64,000 bases of DNA from Opitutia bacterium ISCC 52. GTDB taxonomy: Bacteria > Verrucomicrobiota > Verrucomicrobiia > Opitutales > UBA2995. This document shows, one piece after another, positions 4,140-13,187 of the stretch (position 1 is its first letter; every line of letters starts with the position of its first letter). The notes under the pieces were generated by a model. It saw only the letters and a program-made list of their open reading frames with translations, ran no database searches and was not told the origin of the DNA. The stretch spans positions 3,801,894 through 3,865,893 of the forward strand of contig CP076040.1 of the NCBI GenBank assembly GCA_014529675.2, in the 5' to 3' direction. The position numbers and the translations under genes were made by a program.

Positions 4140-4982
4140 ATGTTCGAACAGTTTAAACAGTGGTTTGCTTCAAAGACGACCGTGATCATTCACATCAACA
4201 CGGGTCGTAACTGCCTACTTGCATCAAAGAAATTTACTCTCGGATACGGCTCAGTGAATAGCTGGAGTTTGGATAATTCAAAGCCACCCTCGCAGTTACT
4301 CCACTTCCAGAAGACCAAAACGAGCCTCGAAGTAGAACCAACGAACCCCGGCGACACCTTACTTCTCGATGGCAAACCTTGGGCAGAAGAAGTTTTAGAT
4401 TTTGAAACCGAGTATACGCTGCAAGTTCACGAGGAACAGTTTCTAATCTGCGTGACAGAAAAGCCCAAAGCCTGGCTTAAACAAATCGACCTCAAGACCT
4501 GGATGGTGTTCGAACCATCTACGGGTGAGATCTATGGCCCCTTGGACAAACTCCAGCTCGAACCCTGGGTGATTGCAGAGCTCAAAGACCCAGATGAACT
4601 GATTTACTACCCCAAAGGTTCTGCCAAAGGTTTCTACATCAGCCAGGTCGTAGAAATGGAGCTTCCCGCAGCCAAGCCCCAAAAGGAAATAATTGAAGAG
4701 CGATTGAAAGAGCACCGCCCCTATTCTGCCGGCCAGAATAAAGAAAGTTCTCATCAGCCCCAGTGTCCTCATTGCTGGAGCCCGTACACGGAGGGTGATC
4801 AACTGACTATTGCTACTCACGAATCACTCCGTGGAGATCCCTTGCTCGGTGAAGATGAAATGCTACGGTTCGAGGCAGACAATTTTAATGACAACGGGCT
4901 GCCACTAGACGCTACCGGGAACGCCTTGCCTGGAAAAAGCCTGTCCCCAATGCCGATTAAAGATACCGCATGGACTCAGTGA
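4140..4982 (+). CDS. DO-GTPase-like protein, N-terminal half (FHA-like, GYF-like, first half of zinc ribbon); frameshifted
   Basis: This reading frame gives 280 residues, of which about 266 look genuine. Residues 12-100 are beta-rich and FHA-like (FTLGYG, LLHFQK, DTLLLDGKPW). Residues 121-170 resemble a GYF-type domain (WMVFEPSTGEIYGPL). Residues 209-212 are CPHC, the first knuckle of a zinc ribbon, followed by ATHESLRGDPLLGEDEMLRF, which I recall from PVC proteins that carry a zinc ribbon before a P-loop GTPase. After K266 the frame becomes unrelated and stops at 4982. Removing one A from the A5 run at 4934-4938 joins it to ACPQCR and a Walker A in the next frame, giving one protein of about 595 residues. 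So this is half of a broken gene or one hit by a sequencing indel. Confidence 0.72.
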   Translation: MFEQFKQWFASKTTVIIHINTGRNCLLASKKFTLGYGSVNSWSLDNSKPPSQLLHFQKTKTSLEVEPTNPGDTLLLDGKPWAEEVLDFETEYTLQVHEEQFLICVTEKPKAWLKQIDLKTWMVFEPSTGEIYGPLDKLQLEPWVIAELKDPDELIYYPKGSAKGFYISQVVEMELPAAKPQKEIIEERLKEHRPYSAGQNKESSHQPQCPHCWSPYTEGDQLTIATHESLRGDPLLGEDEMLRFEADNFNDNGLPLDATGNALPGKSLSPMPIKDTAWTQ

Positions 4983-5928
4983 CATTCCTCAAGCCTTTGT
5001 TTCCATTCTCGGCTCCCCCGGTGCAGGAAAAAGTTATTACTTATCCGTGCTGACAGAGATTCTACAGAAAAAGGCATTTGAGAATTGGGGGGTTCACTGG
5101 AAGGACGCTGATCCCACGGCCAACGCGCCGCTCAATGCAATGCGGCACCGACTCTTTACGGCGCGTAACGCACCGGAGGCCCTACTGGCGAAGACCAGCC
5201 TTGATGGACACTTGTATTCCAAGGTCACGCTCAATGGACGCCCCACTCTACTACCCAAGCCCTTCACTTACATTTTGGAAGGCAACAATGACACGTCGCA
5301 GAGCCTGACCTTCTACGATAACGCCGGAGAACATTTTCAACCCGGATCAGATGGAACGACCAATCCGGTAACGCACCACCTGGCCCATGCACACCTCTGG
5401 TGCTTTTTGTTTGATCCCTCCAAAGACGCCGCCTTCCGTGAAAACCGCACAGCGGCTAACGATCCACAGCTTAGTCGGAATTACCCGACCGAAAGCCAGG
5501 AGCACATTCTATCTGAATTGGAAAACCGGATACGCGTAATTCACCAGCTTTCTCCACTAGGAAAACTAAATACGCCCCTCGCCTTTGTGGTGGGTAAAAA
5601 GGACATCATTCAGGATTGGGATCCGATGACCCGTTTGGAAGATCCTTGGAATGGTCGTCATTTCAATTCCATGGTCGTTGAGGAAAATTCACGCATTCTA
5701 CGAGAGGGATTATTGGAACGCGTCCCGGCCCTGGTAGCACGCGCCGAAGCGCTATCCGAAAAAGTGGTTTACTTTGCCTCAACCTCTCTCGGACATTCAC
5801 CCCGTCGCATCAAAACGGGTGAGCTTAGTCCCGTCCCGCAAAAAATGGATCCCCATGGCGTGGAGGTTCCAGTCTTCTGGTGGTTGACCAACTGGTCCAC
5901 TGTATTCAATCCGCAACGACAGAAGTAA
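4939..5928 (+). CDS. DO-GTPase-like protein, C-terminal half (second zinc knuckle and GTPase domain); frameshifted
   Basis: Continuation of the preceding gene in the next frame, about 329 residues. It begins with CPQC (4942-4953), which completes the zinc ribbon, then FVSILGSPGAGKSYYLS with a Walker A at 5011-5034. Further GTPase marks are YDNAGEHF (switch II/G3-like, DxxG as DNAG) and VVGKKDII (G4-like, KxD). Between the in-frame TAG at 4906 and the GTG at 5047 there is no ATG, GTG or TTG in this frame, so the Walker A cannot be reached by an independent start; it must be read through from the upstream frame. The protein resembles the double-GTPase (DO-GTPase) TRAFAC-like family recalled from PVC genomes. 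Its stop TAA overlaps the ATG of the next gene (TAATG), so the two are translationally coupled. Confidence 0.72.
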   Translation, partial: ACPQCRLKIPHGLSDIPQAFVSILGSPGAGKSYYLSVLTEILQKKAFENWGVHWKDADPTANAPLNAMRHRLFTARNAPEALLAKTSLDGHLYSKVTLNGRPTLLPKPFTYILEGNNDTSQSLTFYDNAGEHFQPGSDGTTNPVTHHLAHAHLWCFLFDPSKDAAFRENRTAANDPQLSRNYPTESQEHILSELENRIRVIHQLSPLGKLNTPLAFVVGKKDIIQDWDPMTRLEDPWNGRHFNSMVVEENSRILREGLLERVPALVARAEALSEKVVYFASTSLGHSPRRIKTGELSPVPQKMDPHGVEVPVFWWLTNWSTVFNPQRQK

Positions 5929-6557
5929 TGGCTAAACAACTTATCTTTTGTAGTGTCCCTCATGGGCTTCAACCCGGCCGTAGCGGGTACTGCTTGATCG
6001 CAGGCCATACCGAATTACCGCAATCCCTCATCCGTCAACTCGAACAGGAGACCAGCGTCTTTCCTCCAAATGAGCAGGAAGATCACCCCGCAGTTCACGA
6101 AATCAAGAAGATCGGGGAAACCGAATGGCATATCTTTTCCCGGCAAACGACCGGGATCAAAGACTACACCGGAAGATTCAGCGGTTTAACCCATGTAGTG
6201 GTTGAACGAGGCAAGGATTTTCCCGAAGGCCTGGATCCTAAAACGGTACTCTGGAAATTCAAAAGCTGGGTAACAGCCATTCCAGACAAACCGAAAACCT
6301 ACGGTCCCGCCGAAGAAATCCATCTTGATGGCATGTATCAGCGAAAAGCCACAGGCCCCAGTGCAGAGACCAAGGAAGAAGCGGATACTGAAGAAGAGAC
6401 CTTTCATCTAAACCCCGATACCAATCGCGTACGCCCAAAACCGCGCCCTCGTAGTGGCATGTACTATGACGGCAAACGCAGAGGGAAAGGACGTGTCTGG
6501 GGCATTGCACTTGTAATCGTCCTGGGAGTTGTGGGTTGGAAGTTATTTTTTTCGTAA
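5928..6557 (+). CDS. GAP1-N-like GTPase-associated protein with C-terminal membrane anchor
   Basis: A 209-residue protein beginning MAKQLIFCSVPHGLQPGRSGY. The opening (small strand, then VP.GL.PGRSG..L....) matches what I recall of the GTPase-associated protein 1 N-terminal domain, which is found beside double GTPases in predicted bacterial conflict or signalling systems. Residues about 20-130 form the domain. A charged low-complexity linker (ETKEEADTEEE, RPKPRPRSG) follows, and a single transmembrane helix (VWGIALVIVLGVVGWKLFF) ends the protein, so the domain probably faces the cytosol at the membrane. The ATG overlaps the stop of the GTPase gene, so I used 5928 rather than the upstream in-frame GTG at 5880. 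The missing middle and C-terminal GAP1 modules make this a short variant. Confidence 0.65.
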   Translation: MAKQLIFCSVPHGLQPGRSGYCLIAGHTELPQSLIRQLEQETSVFPPNEQEDHPAVHEIKKIGETEWHIFSRQTTGIKDYTGRFSGLTHVVVERGKDFPEGLDPKTVLWKFKSWVTAIPDKPKTYGPAEEIHLDGMYQRKATGPSAETKEEADTEEETFHLNPDTNRVRPKPRPRSGMYYDGKRRGKGRVWGIALVIVLGVVGWKLFFS

Positions 6558-6613
6558 CTTAGTGAAACCGGTCCCCAGATGCGGGGTTTTACATTGAGAA
6601 TATAAACCTCTCA

Positions 6614-7129
6614 ATGAAATCAAAACACATCATTTTACTGATTTGCGGAAGCATTTCTTTGGTATCATTTTCCGGCTGCGAAAGCGGTCCGAGTGCACAA
6701 AACGGAGCTACATGGGGAGCCCTAACAGGAGCGGCTTTAGGAGCCATTGTCGGTCACCAGAGCGGTGACGGAGGAGAAGGTGCTGCTATCGGAGCCGTAG
6801 TGGGTGGAGCCATTGGGCATGCCATCGGAGACGAACAGGATCGACAGTATGTCCAGGTCCAACAGCAGCAGGCCGAATTAGAAATCGCCCAAGCCCGACG
6901 AGTGCGTGCTCAACAGGAAGCACAACGTCAACGCATGGCCGTAACCAGCCCTCAAACGGAAGATCGGGAAGTCTTGGCAGCCAAGCAACGTGCCGAAGCT
7001 GCGGAGGCAGAATTGGCACGCATACGTAAAGAAAGACAGGAAGCAGTTGCCCGCGCCCAAGCTATTGAAGCATACGAACAACGCCAGCGAGCAGCCGAAT
7101 CGGAGATTAACGCGCTTCAAGGAAATTAA
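6614..7129 (+). CDS. Glycine-zipper lipoprotein
   Basis: A 171-residue lipoprotein. The signal peptide ends in a lipobox-like FSGC (Cys about 22). Residues 32-75 contain a glycine-zipper repeat (GALTGAALGAIVGHQSGDG, GAAIGAVVGGAIGHAIGD), the YMGG/OmpA-associated type that inserts into or lies on the outer membrane. The rest is a long alpha-helical, Gln/Ala/Glu/Arg-rich coiled coil (QVQQQQAELEIAQARRVRAQQE and following). It starts 57 bases after the GAP1-like gene and may share its transcript, but the functional link is not shown. A stem-loop terminator follows at 7165-7197. Confidence 0.75.
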   Translation: MKSKHIILLICGSISLVSFSGCESGPSAQNGATWGALTGAALGAIVGHQSGDGGEGAAIGAVVGGAIGHAIGDEQDRQYVQVQQQQAELEIAQARRVRAQQEAQRQRMAVTSPQTEDREVLAAKQRAEAAEAELARIRKERQEAVARAQAIEAYEQRQRAAESEINALQGN

Positions 7130-7164
7130 ACGCGAGCAGCACATCTATTTACAGGTCATAAGAG

Positions 7165-7197
7165 AACTCTCTCGGATGTATGTCCGAGGGAGTTTTT
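7165..7197 (+). terminator. Intrinsic terminator of the GTPase/lipoprotein operon
   Basis: Perfect-but-one 12-bp stem: AACTCTCTCGGA (7165-7176) pairs with TCCGAGGGAGTT (7183-7194) with one G-T wobble, loop TGTATG, then a T run (7193-7197). It lies 36 bases after the stop of the lipoprotein gene. Confidence 0.8.
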
Positions 7198-7308
7198 ATG
7201 TACACCAACCTCGTCCCAAGAATGGAGCGCTATGACTTAAGGTTGCAATGAACCGGAAACCCAAATGTATTGCGTACTCCGACATCAATCCAACACAAAG
7301 AAGACATC

Positions 7309-7590
7309 ATGCCGAAAGTTATCGCCACTGCAGAAGTAGAAGACATTGAAAAATGGGAAGAAGGATTTGCCACCCATGGCGACCTTTTCACAGCGCAAAC
7401 GGTTGCTAATCCGATCAGCTATTTAACGGATCCGGAAAGCAATCAGATCATCCTTTGTTTTGAGCCAGAAAACCTGGAAACATTTTTCGAGCTTCTTGAA
7501 AAACCTGAAGCAGCTGAAGCGATGGCCCAAGACGGGGTCATAAGAGAAACCGTAAAGTTCTTTGTGCTGAATAAATCGGCTTCGTTTTAG
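7309..7590 (+). CDS. Small dimeric alpha/beta-barrel-like protein of unknown function
   Basis: A 93-residue cytosolic protein, MPKVIATAEVEDIEKWEEGF. The pattern of an N-terminal strand, helix with W, then LCFEPENLETFFELLEKPEAAEAMAQDGV and a terminal strand (ETVKFFVL) resembles ferredoxin-like dimeric barrel proteins such as DUF3764 or ABM-type; I cannot name the family with confidence. The ATG at 7309 is preceded by a purine-rich AAAGAAGAC (7296-7304). An in-frame upstream start at 7270 adds 13 residues of unconvincing sequence. It ends only 2 bases from the convergent SNF2 gene. Confidence 0.6.
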   Translation: MPKVIATAEVEDIEKWEEGFATHGDLFTAQTVANPISYLTDPESNQIILCFEPENLETFFELLEKPEAAEAMAQDGVIRETVKFFVLNKSASF

Positions 7591-7592
7591 TA

Positions 7593-10088
7593 TCACTCGT
7601 CCTTCGACGAACTGAGCAGAATCAAGTCACTCAACTTGGTGAAGTAGGACTTGAAATCGGTCATTTGAGTGAGGTTCCCGATGACTTGATCGAAGAGGTC
7701 CCGCTTCGAGGCCTTGAGCTCCATGATGCGTTCTTCGATGGTTCCTTGGGTAACCAAGCGGTAGACAAACACCGTTTTGTCCTGACCGATCCGGTGGACA
7801 CGATCGATCGCCTGATCTTCAACCGCGGGATTCCACCAGGGATCCATGAGAAAAACGTAATCAGCGGCATGCAAAGTAATACCCGTGCCACCTGCCTTAA
7901 GACTGACCAACATGATTCCCGCACCGGGAGTTTCTTGAAATTCGGCCACGGGCTTTTCCCTATTGGTGGTGCTACCACGCAATTCGTGAATGGGATACTT
8001 AGGCAAATTTTTCTTAACCGCACCTTTGATGCGATCGAGGAAGGTGACGAATTGACTGAATATAACCACCTTGTGTCCACTGGAGAGAACGTCGTTCAAA
8101 CGATCAATAAGAATGGTGATCTTTCCGCTATCGGAGTGCGGATGTTTTCCCCAGGGAGTAAGATGAGGATCGCAGGCCACCTGGCGCAAGCGAGTAAGCA
8201 ATGACAGCAGGTTGAAATTCTTCTTCTTTACAATGTCCTCGATGTCATTGCCGAGATCCTGGATACCTTCAGACGTCAGCTTGGCATATTCGCGTCGCTG
8301 AGCCTCGGTCATGGGGCAGAGTAAATCGGTCTCAACCTTTTCCGGAAGTTCTGTGGCTACTTCCTTCTTTGTACGCCTCAATACGAAGGGTGAAATTTGC
8401 TTATTGAGCCGTGGCAGATAGATCTCAGGTTCGTTGTCGAGATTCTCCTGAAAGACTTTTCGTCCGCCAAGTAACCCAGGCATTAGGAATCGAAAAATGG
8501 ACCACAAATCCTGTTGTTTATTTTCCAACGGGGTTCCTGTAAGGGCAAGCCGTCGTTCCGCATTTACGGAGTAACAAGCCTGACTGACCTTGGCATCAGG
8601 ATTCTTGATAGACTGGGCTTCATCGAGAACAACATACCCAAATTCAGCATCGCTCAACAGGTGCTTGTGGCGACGTAGCTGGGTATAGCTAGCCAGCCAG
8701 ATCTTGGAATCGGTCTTTTCACCAAAATGATTTCCACTACGCAGCACCTCCAACTCGGTACCAGGAAACCAACGATCAAATTCTGCTCGCCAGACAGGCA
8801 CCACACTCGCTGGGCAAACAATCAAGTGCCGTTTATCCAACATGTTCTTCTGTTTGAGCAGGCTCGCAACCTGAAGGGTTTTTCCTAAACCCATCTCATC
8901 GGCAAGCAAACCGTGGCAACCGACGTCACCTAAGTGCGAGAACCACTCGACTCCATAGCGCTGGTAATCGCGCAGAAACTCAGGGAGCTCCAATTCGGCT
9001 GGCTTGGTATCACTATCAAGCGCTTTGTGCCATTGCTTGAGCTCTTTGGACAGGGAAAGCTTTACTCGCTTGCGACCGTAAAGAGACAAGAGGAGATACC
9101 GAGGGATCTTCCCATCCGGCAACGAAGACTGAACCTCCTTGTAATCCCGGATGACTTTGCCTTGCTGTTCTCCGACTCGGACGATGCCGATGTTCGGAAC
9201 AAAGTGGAGTGTTTTGCCACGCTTGAAAAGCGACTTACCAAGATGCCCATCGATCTTCTTTCTTCCAACCGAGAATCGCCAATCCAAACTGGTATTTTCG
9301 TCATCCAATGAACCAGCCACGACCTCGAGATCGACTTCATGGATCGCCTTGGCCCGCTTCTCCATGGCCTTATCCATCCGGATATCAAAGTGCTTACGCC
9401 ACCCCGATAATGCATCTCCCACGAAGGCTGGTACCAGCCCCAGATTGTGGAGCCGATAAACCGCTTGGCTCTTAATAAACTGAAATTCACTTCTGTGAGC
9501 CAGGCCTGCTAAGCGGATGACTTGCTCTCGCTCTTTTGCACTGGGAAATTGATTCTTAGGAGGTGTCTTGAGGGCAGGTGTTTTCGATCCATCTTTATTG
9601 ATCCAGGACGCGGTTAAGGTCAGTCCTTGCTGACTCAACTCCAACCACAGGTCCAATGGCCGAGCAGGAATCTCTGGCTTTTTCGCAACTTCAGGTTTTG
9701 GTTTCTTCGGTTCCTCTTCTTTCTCCGATTTCGGTTTAAAAAACTGCGGCGATGGGGCCGCTTCCTCCACCACTAATTCTTCGATTTCATAAAAGCCAGC
9801 AACGGCAATCGCACGGCCGAAGGGTCGCTGCGTGGTGGATGCCCGAACTTCGAAGGTGCCATTCTTCCAATCGATCATGGCATAGGACTCTTGTTTTTCT
9901 ATCTTACAGTGGACAATGGCATCCGTCTCAGTGATCTCTACTTCGCGAATCTCTCCGCGTCGATAAAGCAAGCGACCGGCCTTTAATTCCTCCTTGGTAA
10001 ACTCTCGTTCCCAGTCGCCTGTAATCCGATCAAACCACTTTTCGATGGCTTGTTTCGTGAATAGATGATTGGCGTAACGGGCGTACAT
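7593..10088 (-). CDS. SNF2-family DEAD/DEAH-type ATPase/helicase
   Basis: An 831-residue SWI2/SNF2 ATP-dependent DNA translocase. Motif I is DEMGLGKT (397-404), motif II is LDEAQS (488-493, DEAQ), motif III is LTGTPLENK, and the helicase C domain shows VMLVSLKAGGTGITLH-like and the diagnostic VHRIGQDKTVFVYRL near 770-790. The first 370 residues lack the zinc-binding SWIM cysteines seen in many bacterial SNF2 proteins; instead there is a Pro/Lys-rich linker (about 115-145) and a beta-rich region. This bacterial class is linked to RNA polymerase recycling (RapA-like) or DNA repair; which role applies here is unknown. Stand-alone gene, convergent with the small protein at 7309-7590. Confidence 0.95.
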   Translation of the reverse strand: MYARYANHLFTKQAIEKWFDRITGDWEREFTKEELKAGRLLYRRGEIREVEITETDAIVHCKIEKQESYAMIDWKNGTFEVRASTTQRPFGRAIAVAGFYEIEELVVEEAAPSPQFFKPKSEKEEEPKKPKPEVAKKPEIPARPLDLWLELSQQGLTLTASWINKDGSKTPALKTPPKNQFPSAKEREQVIRLAGLAHRSEFQFIKSQAVYRLHNLGLVPAFVGDALSGWRKHFDIRMDKAMEKRAKAIHEVDLEVVAGSLDDENTSLDWRFSVGRKKIDGHLGKSLFKRGKTLHFVPNIGIVRVGEQQGKVIRDYKEVQSSLPDGKIPRYLLLSLYGRKRVKLSLSKELKQWHKALDSDTKPAELELPEFLRDYQRYGVEWFSHLGDVGCHGLLADEMGLGKTLQVASLLKQKNMLDKRHLIVCPASVVPVWRAEFDRWFPGTELEVLRSGNHFGEKTDSKIWLASYTQLRRHKHLLSDAEFGYVVLDEAQSIKNPDAKVSQACYSVNAERRLALTGTPLENKQQDLWSIFRFLMPGLLGGRKVFQENLDNEPEIYLPRLNKQISPFVLRRTKKEVATELPEKVETDLLCPMTEAQRREYAKLTSEGIQDLGNDIEDIVKKKNFNLLSLLTRLRQVACDPHLTPWGKHPHSDSGKITILIDRLNDVLSSGHKVVIFSQFVTFLDRIKGAVKKNLPKYPIHELRGSTTNREKPVAEFQETPGAGIMLVSLKAGGTGITLHAADYVFLMDPWWNPAVEDQAIDRVHRIGQDKTVFVYRLVTQGTIEERIMELKASKRDLFDQVIGNLTQMTDFKSYFTKLSDLILLSSSKDE

Positions 10089-10274
10089 AGGAACCCTTGA
10101 TCATCATATCTGAGGCCAAGTCAGGGCAACTCCTTTTTACAAGAAAGGGTCGATTTCGGTTAAGAAATGAAGGAAACATGAAAGGGCTGGATCGAAGGAC
10201 CCAATTCCAACTAAGATCGTGTAAAAGTGAAGGAGCCCGTTTTATATTAGACCATACATCTACCTACCCCATTC

Positions 10275-13187
10275 ATGGAAAAGCCACTCATCGACTTCTC
10301 ATTTAAACTAGCTATTGTTTTATTGTTCCCTCTAGCAGGTATGTCGCAACGGGAGACTCCCAATGTGGCGGATCCTTTGATCTACCCCTATGCAGATCCG
10401 GCAGGCAGCAGGGAGGGACATCGCTATGAGGATCATCCCATCAATGAATTTCGCCTGTACGACTTTTATCAGCGACAAGCCGATTACTACATGGAGCATG
10501 GAAATGTGCCCGACATCATCCCAGCCTATCCAGGAATGGAAGCGGGCATCAATGGACACTGGGGACGGTATAATCATTTTGATTTGTTCAGCGACATATG
10601 GGCACAGATGGACAACGGTCCCATCGTAACTTCCGTCATTCGCCAAGGACCTGACCCAATTGTAAAGGCCATCAACCTTCGCTTGGGCGACAATCAAGAC
10701 ATCTTCGCCTCCTTCGATCAGCTGACCTTAAGTTACCGCATGGTTTGGGAAGATGACTTTCTGAAATACCCTGAAGTGCGTTGGGGGATGATGGGCCTTG
10801 TCGAACCCGCAACTACTCCGCGACTCCAATCCTGGGACACTGGCTGGTCAAAAACGCCTACCTGGAACCAAAGCTACGATCCAAATGATATTGATTACCA
10901 CGGGTTCTTCCGATTCGGAAATAAAGCCGTATTCAGCTATCAGGTACATGAAACAAAAGTGATGGAAAGCCCTGCCGCGATCCGAGTAGGAGGTGATCCC
11001 CTATTCATCAGAACCATTCACTTTCCCGAAGGAGCTGAGGATTTGAATTTAAAGTTCTTCAAATCTCCGTCGGGTGACAATCCGACTACAACTACCAAGA
11101 GTGATGAGCTACTGCTAAGTTCACTCCTGCTAAACAGCCAACAGTTCGGAGTCGCGGTCAAATCGTCAAATACCCTGAACGACCTTAGTATTAAAGTCTC
11201 GGATGAAGGATACTTCTATTTGGAAATCTCAGAACTAGAGGCAGGGACAAGCTTGACCACCTATGCCTGGAATTCTGAGGAAGCACTATCTACCATCCAA
11301 CATGCAGTGGAAACTCACTCTACCATCGATCTCAGCGCATACATCCGCGGAGGACCCACTCACTGGCCGGAAGAGTTTGTAGTCAGCGGGGAGCTAGGGA
11401 AGTCGGACGGGCCCTACACCATTGATACGATTCCGGTACCCATTGAAAATCCATTCCCCTCCCCCATGTATTTGAATGGACTGGCCTTCTTCGAAAATGG
11501 AGATGCAGCCGTCTCAACCTTTTTTGGAGATCTCTGGTTAGTGAAAGGGATTGATGATCAGCTGGACAAAGTCTCGTGGCGCCGCATCGCTCAGGGGATC
11601 AATCAACCACTCGGCTTGGAAATCGTAGACGGCAAGATCCACGCCATCTGCAAAGACCAGATTACCATCTACCATGATCTCAATGGGGATGAGGAGATCG
11701 ACTACTTCGAAAACTTCTGCAATACTTTCCGTACTTCTGCTGGAGGCCATGACTACAATACAGGCTTACAGCTGGATGCTGAAGGCAACTTCTACTTCGC
11801 AACGAAACATGATGGCGTTCATCGCGTATCACCCGATGGCAAACAAGTGGACATTCTTGCGGATGGTTTAAGAAATCCAAATGGGATTGGAGTCGCTCCA
11901 GATGGGCGCGTGTGGGTAACCCCACAGGAAGGGCAATGGAACCCTGCTTCGCAAATCTTTCATGTTAAACAAGGTGACTACTATGGCTTTCAGTATCACA
12001 TGCAGGAAAAGAAAATTGAACCTGCCACGGCCTATATTCCACGTGGTATCGACAATTCAACCGGCGGTCAGCTGTATATAACCACGGACAAGTGGGGACC
12101 CATGAGGGACCAGGTCATCTCCCTTTCCTTTGGCACCAATTCACACTATCTGGTGCTGGAGGACATGAGCGGTCCCAAAGCACAAGGCGCGATCGTACCT
12201 CTTGACGGAGATTTCATTTCAGGAATCCACCGAGGACGCATTCATCCGATCGACGAGCAAGTATACGTGGTCGGCTCTCAGGGTTGGGGAACTTATTCCC
12301 AAACAGACGGATCTTTTGAACGCATTCGTTATACTGGCAAACCCGTTTATTATCCCCTCGGTTTCCAGATTTTCCAAAATGGCATCCGCGTCGATTTTGA
12401 CCATCTCCTCTCAAAGGAAGCGGTTGAATCGGTAAAGAAGGTCTTCGCCCAACAGTGGCAGTACATTTATACCATGGGTTATGGTTCTCCGGAATTCTCT
12501 ATTCGTGATCCCGAACAGTTTGGACACGATCCATTAGAAATAACCTCTGCCCACGTAGTTGGAGATGGGAAATCTTTATTCGTAGAAATCCCGGATATCG
12601 TCCCTGCCATGACCATCCATCTGCGCATGCATCTGACGTTTGCAAAAGGCGATCCATTCAAAACAGATCTTTTTGCGACAGCCCTGCACCTGGGAAAAGC
12701 ATTCACACAATTCCCAAAGGCGAAACCGATTGTACAAGGGAAACTGCAGGAGATTGAGCTTACGATTAAAATGCCTCCTCCGATTCCCGGCATTGAACCG
12801 GGAAGTGACGAACAGGGCCGTCCCATCCACCTCAAAGCTTTGACGGGTTTGAAATACGACCAAACCCGGATCTCAGCCAGTCCGGGAGAACGCATTTCAC
12901 TCACCCTGGAAAACACCGATGTCATGCCCCACAATTGGGTCATGGTGCGCTATGAAGGCTACACCAACGTAGGAGAGAAAGCCGATAAAATGGTTAACGA
13001 TCCGAATGCCATCACCAAACAATACATTCCGGAAGACCGAGACATCCTGGAATTTACACGGCTACTCAATCCCGGCGAGTCGACCACCATTCATTTTAAT
13101 GCACCCATATCCCCGGGGCACTACCCATTTCTTTGTACCTTCCCCGGTCATTGGCAAGTAATGCGTGGCTATCTGATTGTTTATTGA
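10275..13187 (+). CDS. Exported DUF6797-like/beta-propeller protein with C-terminal azurin-like cupredoxin
   Basis: A 970-residue exported protein (signal peptide to about residue 24, AGMSQ). Residues 40-370 resemble DUF6797 (IYPYADPAG, FDLFSDIWAQMDNGP). About 380-740 looks like a soluble PQQ-dehydrogenase or NHL-type beta-propeller (GLQLDAEGNFYFATKHDGVHRVSPDGK and GIGVAPDGRVWVTPQEG). Residues 855-970 are an azurin-like domain with all type 1 copper ligands: H886 (MPHNW), C954, H959 and M963 (FLCTFPGHWQVM), at the azurin spacing of 5 and 4. So copper-mediated electron transfer can be predicted, with the propeller as likely oxidase/dehydrogenase. Multidomain proteins of this type occur in PVC bacteria. 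Its partner may be the next gene, 47 bases downstream. Confidence 0.8.
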   Translation: MEKPLIDFSFKLAIVLLFPLAGMSQRETPNVADPLIYPYADPAGSREGHRYEDHPINEFRLYDFYQRQADYYMEHGNVPDIIPAYPGMEAGINGHWGRYNHFDLFSDIWAQMDNGPIVTSVIRQGPDPIVKAINLRLGDNQDIFASFDQLTLSYRMVWEDDFLKYPEVRWGMMGLVEPATTPRLQSWDTGWSKTPTWNQSYDPNDIDYHGFFRFGNKAVFSYQVHETKVMESPAAIRVGGDPLFIRTIHFPEGAEDLNLKFFKSPSGDNPTTTTKSDELLLSSLLLNSQQFGVAVKSSNTLNDLSIKVSDEGYFYLEISELEAGTSLTTYAWNSEEALSTIQHAVETHSTIDLSAYIRGGPTHWPEEFVVSGELGKSDGPYTIDTIPVPIENPFPSPMYLNGLAFFENGDAAVSTFFGDLWLVKGIDDQLDKVSWRRIAQGINQPLGLEIVDGKIHAICKDQITIYHDLNGDEEIDYFENFCNTFRTSAGGHDYNTGLQLDAEGNFYFATKHDGVHRVSPDGKQVDILADGLRNPNGIGVAPDGRVWVTPQEGQWNPASQIFHVKQGDYYGFQYHMQEKKIEPATAYIPRGIDNSTGGQLYITTDKWGPMRDQVISLSFGTNSHYLVLEDMSGPKAQGAIVPLDGDFISGIHRGRIHPIDEQVYVVGSQGWGTYSQTDGSFERIRYTGKPVYYPLGFQIFQNGIRVDFDHLLSKEAVESVKKVFAQQWQYIYTMGYGSPEFSIRDPEQFGHDPLEITSAHVVGDGKSLFVEIPDIVPAMTIHLRMHLTFAKGDPFKTDLFATALHLGKAFTQFPKAKPIVQGKLQEIELTIKMPPPIPGIEPGSDEQGRPIHLKALTGLKYDQTRISASPGERISLTLENTDVMPHNWVMVRYEGYTNVGEKADKMVNDPNAITKQYIPEDRDILEFTRLLNPGESTTIHFNAPISPGHYPFLCTFPGHWQVMRGYLIVY

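Follow-up and report, generated by a model that had tools for sequence, protein, structure and literature searches.

The window is a 64,000-nucleotide stretch of DNA from the genome of an uncultured Verrucomicrobiota genus (G000), which is assembled into one contig of 4.8 Mb and is 97.8% complete. Its forward strand carries a DO-GTPase2 gene (positions 4140-5928, with an ATG start at 4140), followed by the gene of a reduced GAP1 protein of 209 residues (5928-6557). The two genes are coupled by a TAATG overlap (5926-5930), in which the GAP1 start codon lies inside the GTPase stop codon. The pair is neighbored by an aminotransferase-like gene, a glycine-zipper lipoprotein gene, and an SNF2 gene.

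The DO-GTPase2 gene is composed of an N-terminal part (4140-4982, delimited by its open reading frame), with a degenerate FHA region, a GYF-like segment, and the first of two CxxC pairs (CPHC), and of a GTPase domain (4909-5928), with the second pair (CPQC) and the catalytic motifs. In an HMM search of the window proteins, the GTPase part matches the Pfam family DO-GTPase2 (PF19993) at 6.9e-7 and 29.6 bits, with a cut-off of 27, and the protein encoded by the next gene downstream matches GAP1-N2 (PF20013) at 1e-11 and 45.5 bits, with a cut-off of 24. Both scores exceed the curated cut-offs, and the matches are therefore not due to chance. The original prediction of a DO-GTPase next to a GAP1-N-like protein is thus borne out, and its coordinates, GTPase motifs, and TAATG coupling are confirmed on the sequence. 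No significant match to the pair was found in NCBIfam, and solved structures searched by sequence gave no match for either the GTPase or the GAP1 family.

Reading frame and domains of the GTPase

The 595-residue GTPase is not encoded in one open frame. Frame 1 meets a stop codon at 4982; from about 4909, the part containing the P-loop lies in a different frame. The break (about 4909-4930), located from the translations and from a DNA alignment with three intact relatives, lies between the two CxxC pairs, upstream of the P-loop, and is a one-base length difference in a short run of G. Two genomes of the same genus, G001 and G002, contain the pair as well, and there the GTPase gene is open over about 600 codons; the GTPase frame of G004 is also intact. 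The sequence downstream of the break evolves no faster than that of the relatives, and therefore the break either arose very recently or is an error of the assembly. Programmed frameshifting is unlikely, as the genes of the relatives are uninterrupted and the short G run provides no clear slippery site.

The GTPase domain contains the TRAFAC motifs Walker A (GSPGAGKS), DNAGE, and GKKD, including the conserved glutamate after DxxG. Walker A and DNAGE are kept in all 21 GTPase sequences compared, seven of which, all distant, were negative in a pattern search for the G4 motif xKxD. The intact GTPases of G001, G002, and G004 retain every GTPase motif. The domain in the window is 79% identical to that of an intact protein from the same genus, and the best matches elsewhere in the class reach at most 42% identity. 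The intact relative L017 scores 35.8 bits against DO-GTPase2. A search of the window genome with the DO-GTPase2 profile returned no row, despite the hmmscan match of the gene, probably because the short, near-cut-off match falls under the search threshold. In the phylogenetic tree, the GTPases of the genus group in a single clade with a support of 1.0, which sits on a long stem next to the members from the class.

Synonymous sites are saturated, and selection was therefore expressed only as proportions (pN/pS). These are 0.14-0.17 for the GTPase domain, 0.23-0.33 for GAP1-N2, and 0.17-0.19 for the adjacent SNF2 gene. The GTPase domain is as strongly constrained as SNF2, and the window branch shows no acceleration. 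In each of the three genomes with the pair, purifying selection clearly acts on both the GTPase and the GAP1-N2 domain, also 3' of the break.

The N-terminus of the window GTPase had been described as containing FHA-like and GYF-like regions and a zinc ribbon. None of these has a Pfam match in the window protein, but they can be traced as degenerate versions through distant relatives and profile comparison. A distant member from the same phylum (L104) combines FHA (1.7e-17), GYF_2 (3e-11), and DO-GTPase2 (3.6e-6) in one protein. The N-terminus of the genus aligns in hhalign with order-level N-termini from the same class at 5.7e-22, and these align with genuine FHA proteins at 1.1e-10. Direct profile comparison of the genus N-terminus with the distant FHA members gave no match, so the link from the genus to FHA depends on the intermediate family. 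The FHA (PF00498) signature residues GR and SxxH occur in six distant relatives, and the distant operons L103, L104, and L108 keep them intact. A pattern search did not find them in the intact proteins of the genus, and the alignment shows that the window N-terminus lacks them too. Phosphothreonine binding is therefore unlikely in the window genus. The GYF-like segment aligns with a set of GYF_2 (PF14237) segments at 4.9e-5 with an hhalign probability of 68% over 23 columns, which is only suggestive of a GYF domain. The CPHC and CPQC pairs flanking the frame break are consistent with a zinc ribbon. An AlphaFold2 model of the FHA/GYF part, computed from a two-sequence alignment, had a mean pLDDT of 33 and was too poor to use.

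The reduced GAP1 protein and canonical operons

The window GAP1 protein, delimited by Pfam, hydropathy and charge, and alignment with full-length GAP1, is formed by the N2 domain (residues 1-122), a linker of about 50 residues, a basic stretch, and a terminal membrane helix. The helix is the sole hydrophobic stretch of the protein (residues 190-208 of 209), as had been predicted. In the GAP1 proteins of the genus, basic residues precede the helix and zero to one residue follows it; one residue follows it in the window protein. Full-length GAP1 is built of N2 and then the middle domain GAP1-M, which Pfam detects in relatives at 4.8e-12, 2.1e-13, and 7.6e-12, and at a borderline 3.8e-5 in a relative from the same order. 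GAP1-M (PF20014) has no Pfam match in the window GAP1, and about 100 residues are missing in the alignment with full-length GAP1. In most class members, the GAP1 membrane helix is followed by 145-898 residues outside; the window protein lacks such an outside part and has no GAP1 C-terminal domain. AlphaFold2 run on a two-sequence alignment gave a mean pLDDT of 45, with the C-terminal helix as the sole confident element, and the model was not used for a fold search.

Canonical Verrucomicrobiota operons are ordered as a GTPase, a GAP1 composed of N2 and the middle domain, a membrane protein of about 1000 residues, and often a GYF membrane protein. Their GAP1 often includes a membrane helix, followed by a large part outside. 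Conserved pairing was examined in 23 GAP1-N2 loci outside the window family, which are a non-random set picked to be diverse, and some of which stop at contig edges. The GTPase is directly upstream of GAP1 in 17 of them, so that the GTPase and GAP1 constitute a lasting pair. The protein of about 1000 residues, typically with one membrane helix, is directly downstream in 17 of the 23, and several loci add a GYF protein with membrane helices. This third protein is present in 9 of 11 same-order relatives that have GAP1-N2. It has no match in seven of the eight genomes of the family, including that of the window, where its absence is not an assembly gap because the genome is one contig. The remaining genome, G005, lacks the pair and has one weak third-protein match of 86 positions. 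The earlier reading of the pair as a reduced form thus agrees with the loss of GAP1-M, the GAP1 outside part, and the third protein.

The canonical operons of the phylum (L027, L028, L112, and L114, and the distant L103, L104, and L108) share with the window the GTPase-GAP1 order and the FHA/GYF/zinc ribbon/DO-GTPase2 architecture, of which the FHA and GYF regions in the window GTPase are putative and degenerate. Unlike the window, they have GAP1-M or its equivalent, usually the third protein, and often the GYF membrane protein.

Occurrence of the pair and relation to described systems

GAP1-N2 occurs in 125 of 373 genomes of the order. The window genus is the only one with a confirmed short stand-alone GAP1, which is present in three of its six genomes (G000, G001, and G002). 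G009 has a 282-codon GAP1-N2 frame with a recognisable middle domain, and a few other frames in the order with fewer than 300 residues match only in part, some of them lying at contig edges. Elsewhere in the phylum (388 genomes), the GAP1-N2 frames, except that of G009, are longer than 300 residues, and three distant proteins near 300 residues that were scanned all contain GAP1-M.

G003 and the second genus of the family lack the pair, and so, apparently, does G005. The pair is an accessory element, since its flanking genes are found without it in G003 and in G007, a genome from outside the window genus. G002 contains a further, partial copy, located where a contig ends. G004 has a GTPase alone (L077, 5009-6826), which is 59% identical to that of the window in the GTPase and has the same N-terminal architecture, but is placed at another genomic location and is directly followed by a strong terminator, with no GAP1. 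After this terminator lies a partial-tRNA-like sequence that ARAGORN does not call. The window genome also encodes an unlinked GYF_2 protein (G000:C1:829196-829324, within a 354-residue frame), which is not specific to the pair since a similar one is present in G003, which is without the GTPase pair.

GAP1-N2-type DO-GTPase systems were described, as a prediction only, by Kaur, Burroughs, Iyer and Aravind (2020, eLife 9:e52696; PMC7159879), who found them to be membrane-associated, their GAP1 often bearing C-terminal membrane helices. The suggestion that the locus is an undescribed system was therefore too strong, and the window pair is a new reduced variant of a described class whose role is predicted only. 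The pair resembles those systems in its DO-GTPase followed by a GAP1-N2 protein, its zinc-ribbon cysteines, its GAP1 membrane helix, and a phylum range that includes Verrucomicrobiota (PMC7159879). It differs in having a GAP1 of only N2 and a tail anchor, with neither GAP1-M nor an outside part, and in being without an FNIII, effector, or other variable gene. The fusion of FHA to the GTPase is not mentioned in the main text of Kaur et al., and GYF in their systems is a partner protein only (PMC7159879). A 2024 paper ties a DO-GTPase to membrane-related stress (PMC11237479). We found no experimental study of any DO-GTPase/GAP1 member in the open literature.

A predicted membrane-tethered GTP switch

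We propose, with moderate confidence, that the pair is a minimal, lineage-specific GAP1-N2-type DO-GTPase system, predicted to function as a membrane-tethered GTP switch. Such a switch would consist of a GTPase that keeps its catalytic motifs and a GAP1 that has shrunk to its N2 domain. According to the positive-inside rule, the GAP1 N-terminus would face inwards, and N2 is thus predicted to reside in the cytoplasm, held at the inner membrane by the C-terminal tail anchor. N2 most likely binds the GTPase and sets its nucleotide cycle; we infer this regulation of GTP turnover from the co-occurrence of the genes and from the hypothesis of Kaur et al. (PMC7159879). No effector gene, and no linked FNIII gene, is present at the window locus; if there is an effector, its gene must lie elsewhere, or a process of the host envelope must take that role. 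The intact pairs of G001 and G002 count for the proposed switch, and the broken frame of the window copy counts against it. Since G004 has the GTPase alone, the GTPase may not always need GAP1. A more tentative speculation is that the tail-anchored GAP1-N2 is a sufficient partner, and that the pair is the irreducible core of DO-GTPase systems, a membrane-tethered switch without an effector that no longer serves in conflict and instead controls an everyday process of the envelope.

The broken frame could also be the latest step in the decay of a leftover pair of an ancestral multi-gene system that is drifting to loss. The missing GAP1-M, outside part, and third protein, the absence of the pair from G003, from the family's second genus, and apparently from G005, and the long stem of the GTPase clade are all consistent with such a remnant. 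However, the purifying selection on both domains extends to all three genomes and to the sequence 3' of the break, two of the three pairs are open, and the three intact GTPases have lost none of their motifs, which makes a decaying remnant rather unlikely.

The patchy presence of the pair and its differing genomic locations within the genus would agree with an anti-phage or anti-invader switch, the conflict role that Kaur et al. predicted for the class from its variable effectors (PMC7159879), with the effector elsewhere in the genome. We regard this as unlikely, as no effector lies beside the pair, the neighbors are household genes conserved without it, a PADLOC defence-system search gave no match, and neither did a search of phage and plasmid sequences. 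It is highly improbable that the pair is an envelope-stress module with the adjoining lipoprotein as its outer-membrane partner; the original prediction had raised the lipoprotein as a possible envelope partner. The lipoprotein gene directly follows GAP1 in G000, G001, and G002. However, in G007, which belongs to another genus of the family, the orthologous lipoprotein gene (L079, 5546-6067) sits beside the aminotransferase-like gene (6285-7814) with no GTPase or GAP1 between them. The lipoprotein is also present in G004, where the single detected GTPase is at another site, and the synteny of the flanking genes holds whether or not the pair is there. The lipoprotein is therefore independent of the pair, its adjacency in three genomes reflects shared synteny, and the partnership was rejected as largely refuted. 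A terminator between GAP1 and the lipoprotein gene was also considered; its hairpin is weak and not conserved.

As a natural two-gene version, the proposed switch shows which parts of the system are dispensable and which stay under selection. It is also a small expressible target, with a GTPase of about 600 residues and a soluble domain of about 120 residues, for the question of whether GTP turnover is controlled by GAP1-N2.

The comparison also reveals the third membrane protein as recurrent, following GAP1 in most of the Verrucomicrobiota operons read. It typically has one membrane helix near residue 350-370, and it matches no Pfam family above the cut-off (L112, 1003-4032; L027, 7386-10169; L108, 6897-9965; and others), and it may be an unrecorded core component. 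The third component is followed in L108 by a PilM/FtsA-like gene (10005-11807; PF11104, 1.4e-9), and in L103 by a gene (10368-12224) that looks similar. In three families of the order, the GTPase operon is preceded by a divergently encoded candidate ECF sigma/anti-sigma pair (L028, 8665-9761; L027, 2963-4050; L022, 556-2140). Upstream of the canonical GAP1-N2 operon in L114 (G053, 8441-12800) is a MotA/ExbB-like channel gene (PF01618, 4.9e-10). The same region encodes a GYF_2-PrsW protease fusion and two proteins, each with an N-terminal membrane helix, that are possibly ExbD/TolR-like; it may be an ion-channel module tied to a DO-GTPase system.
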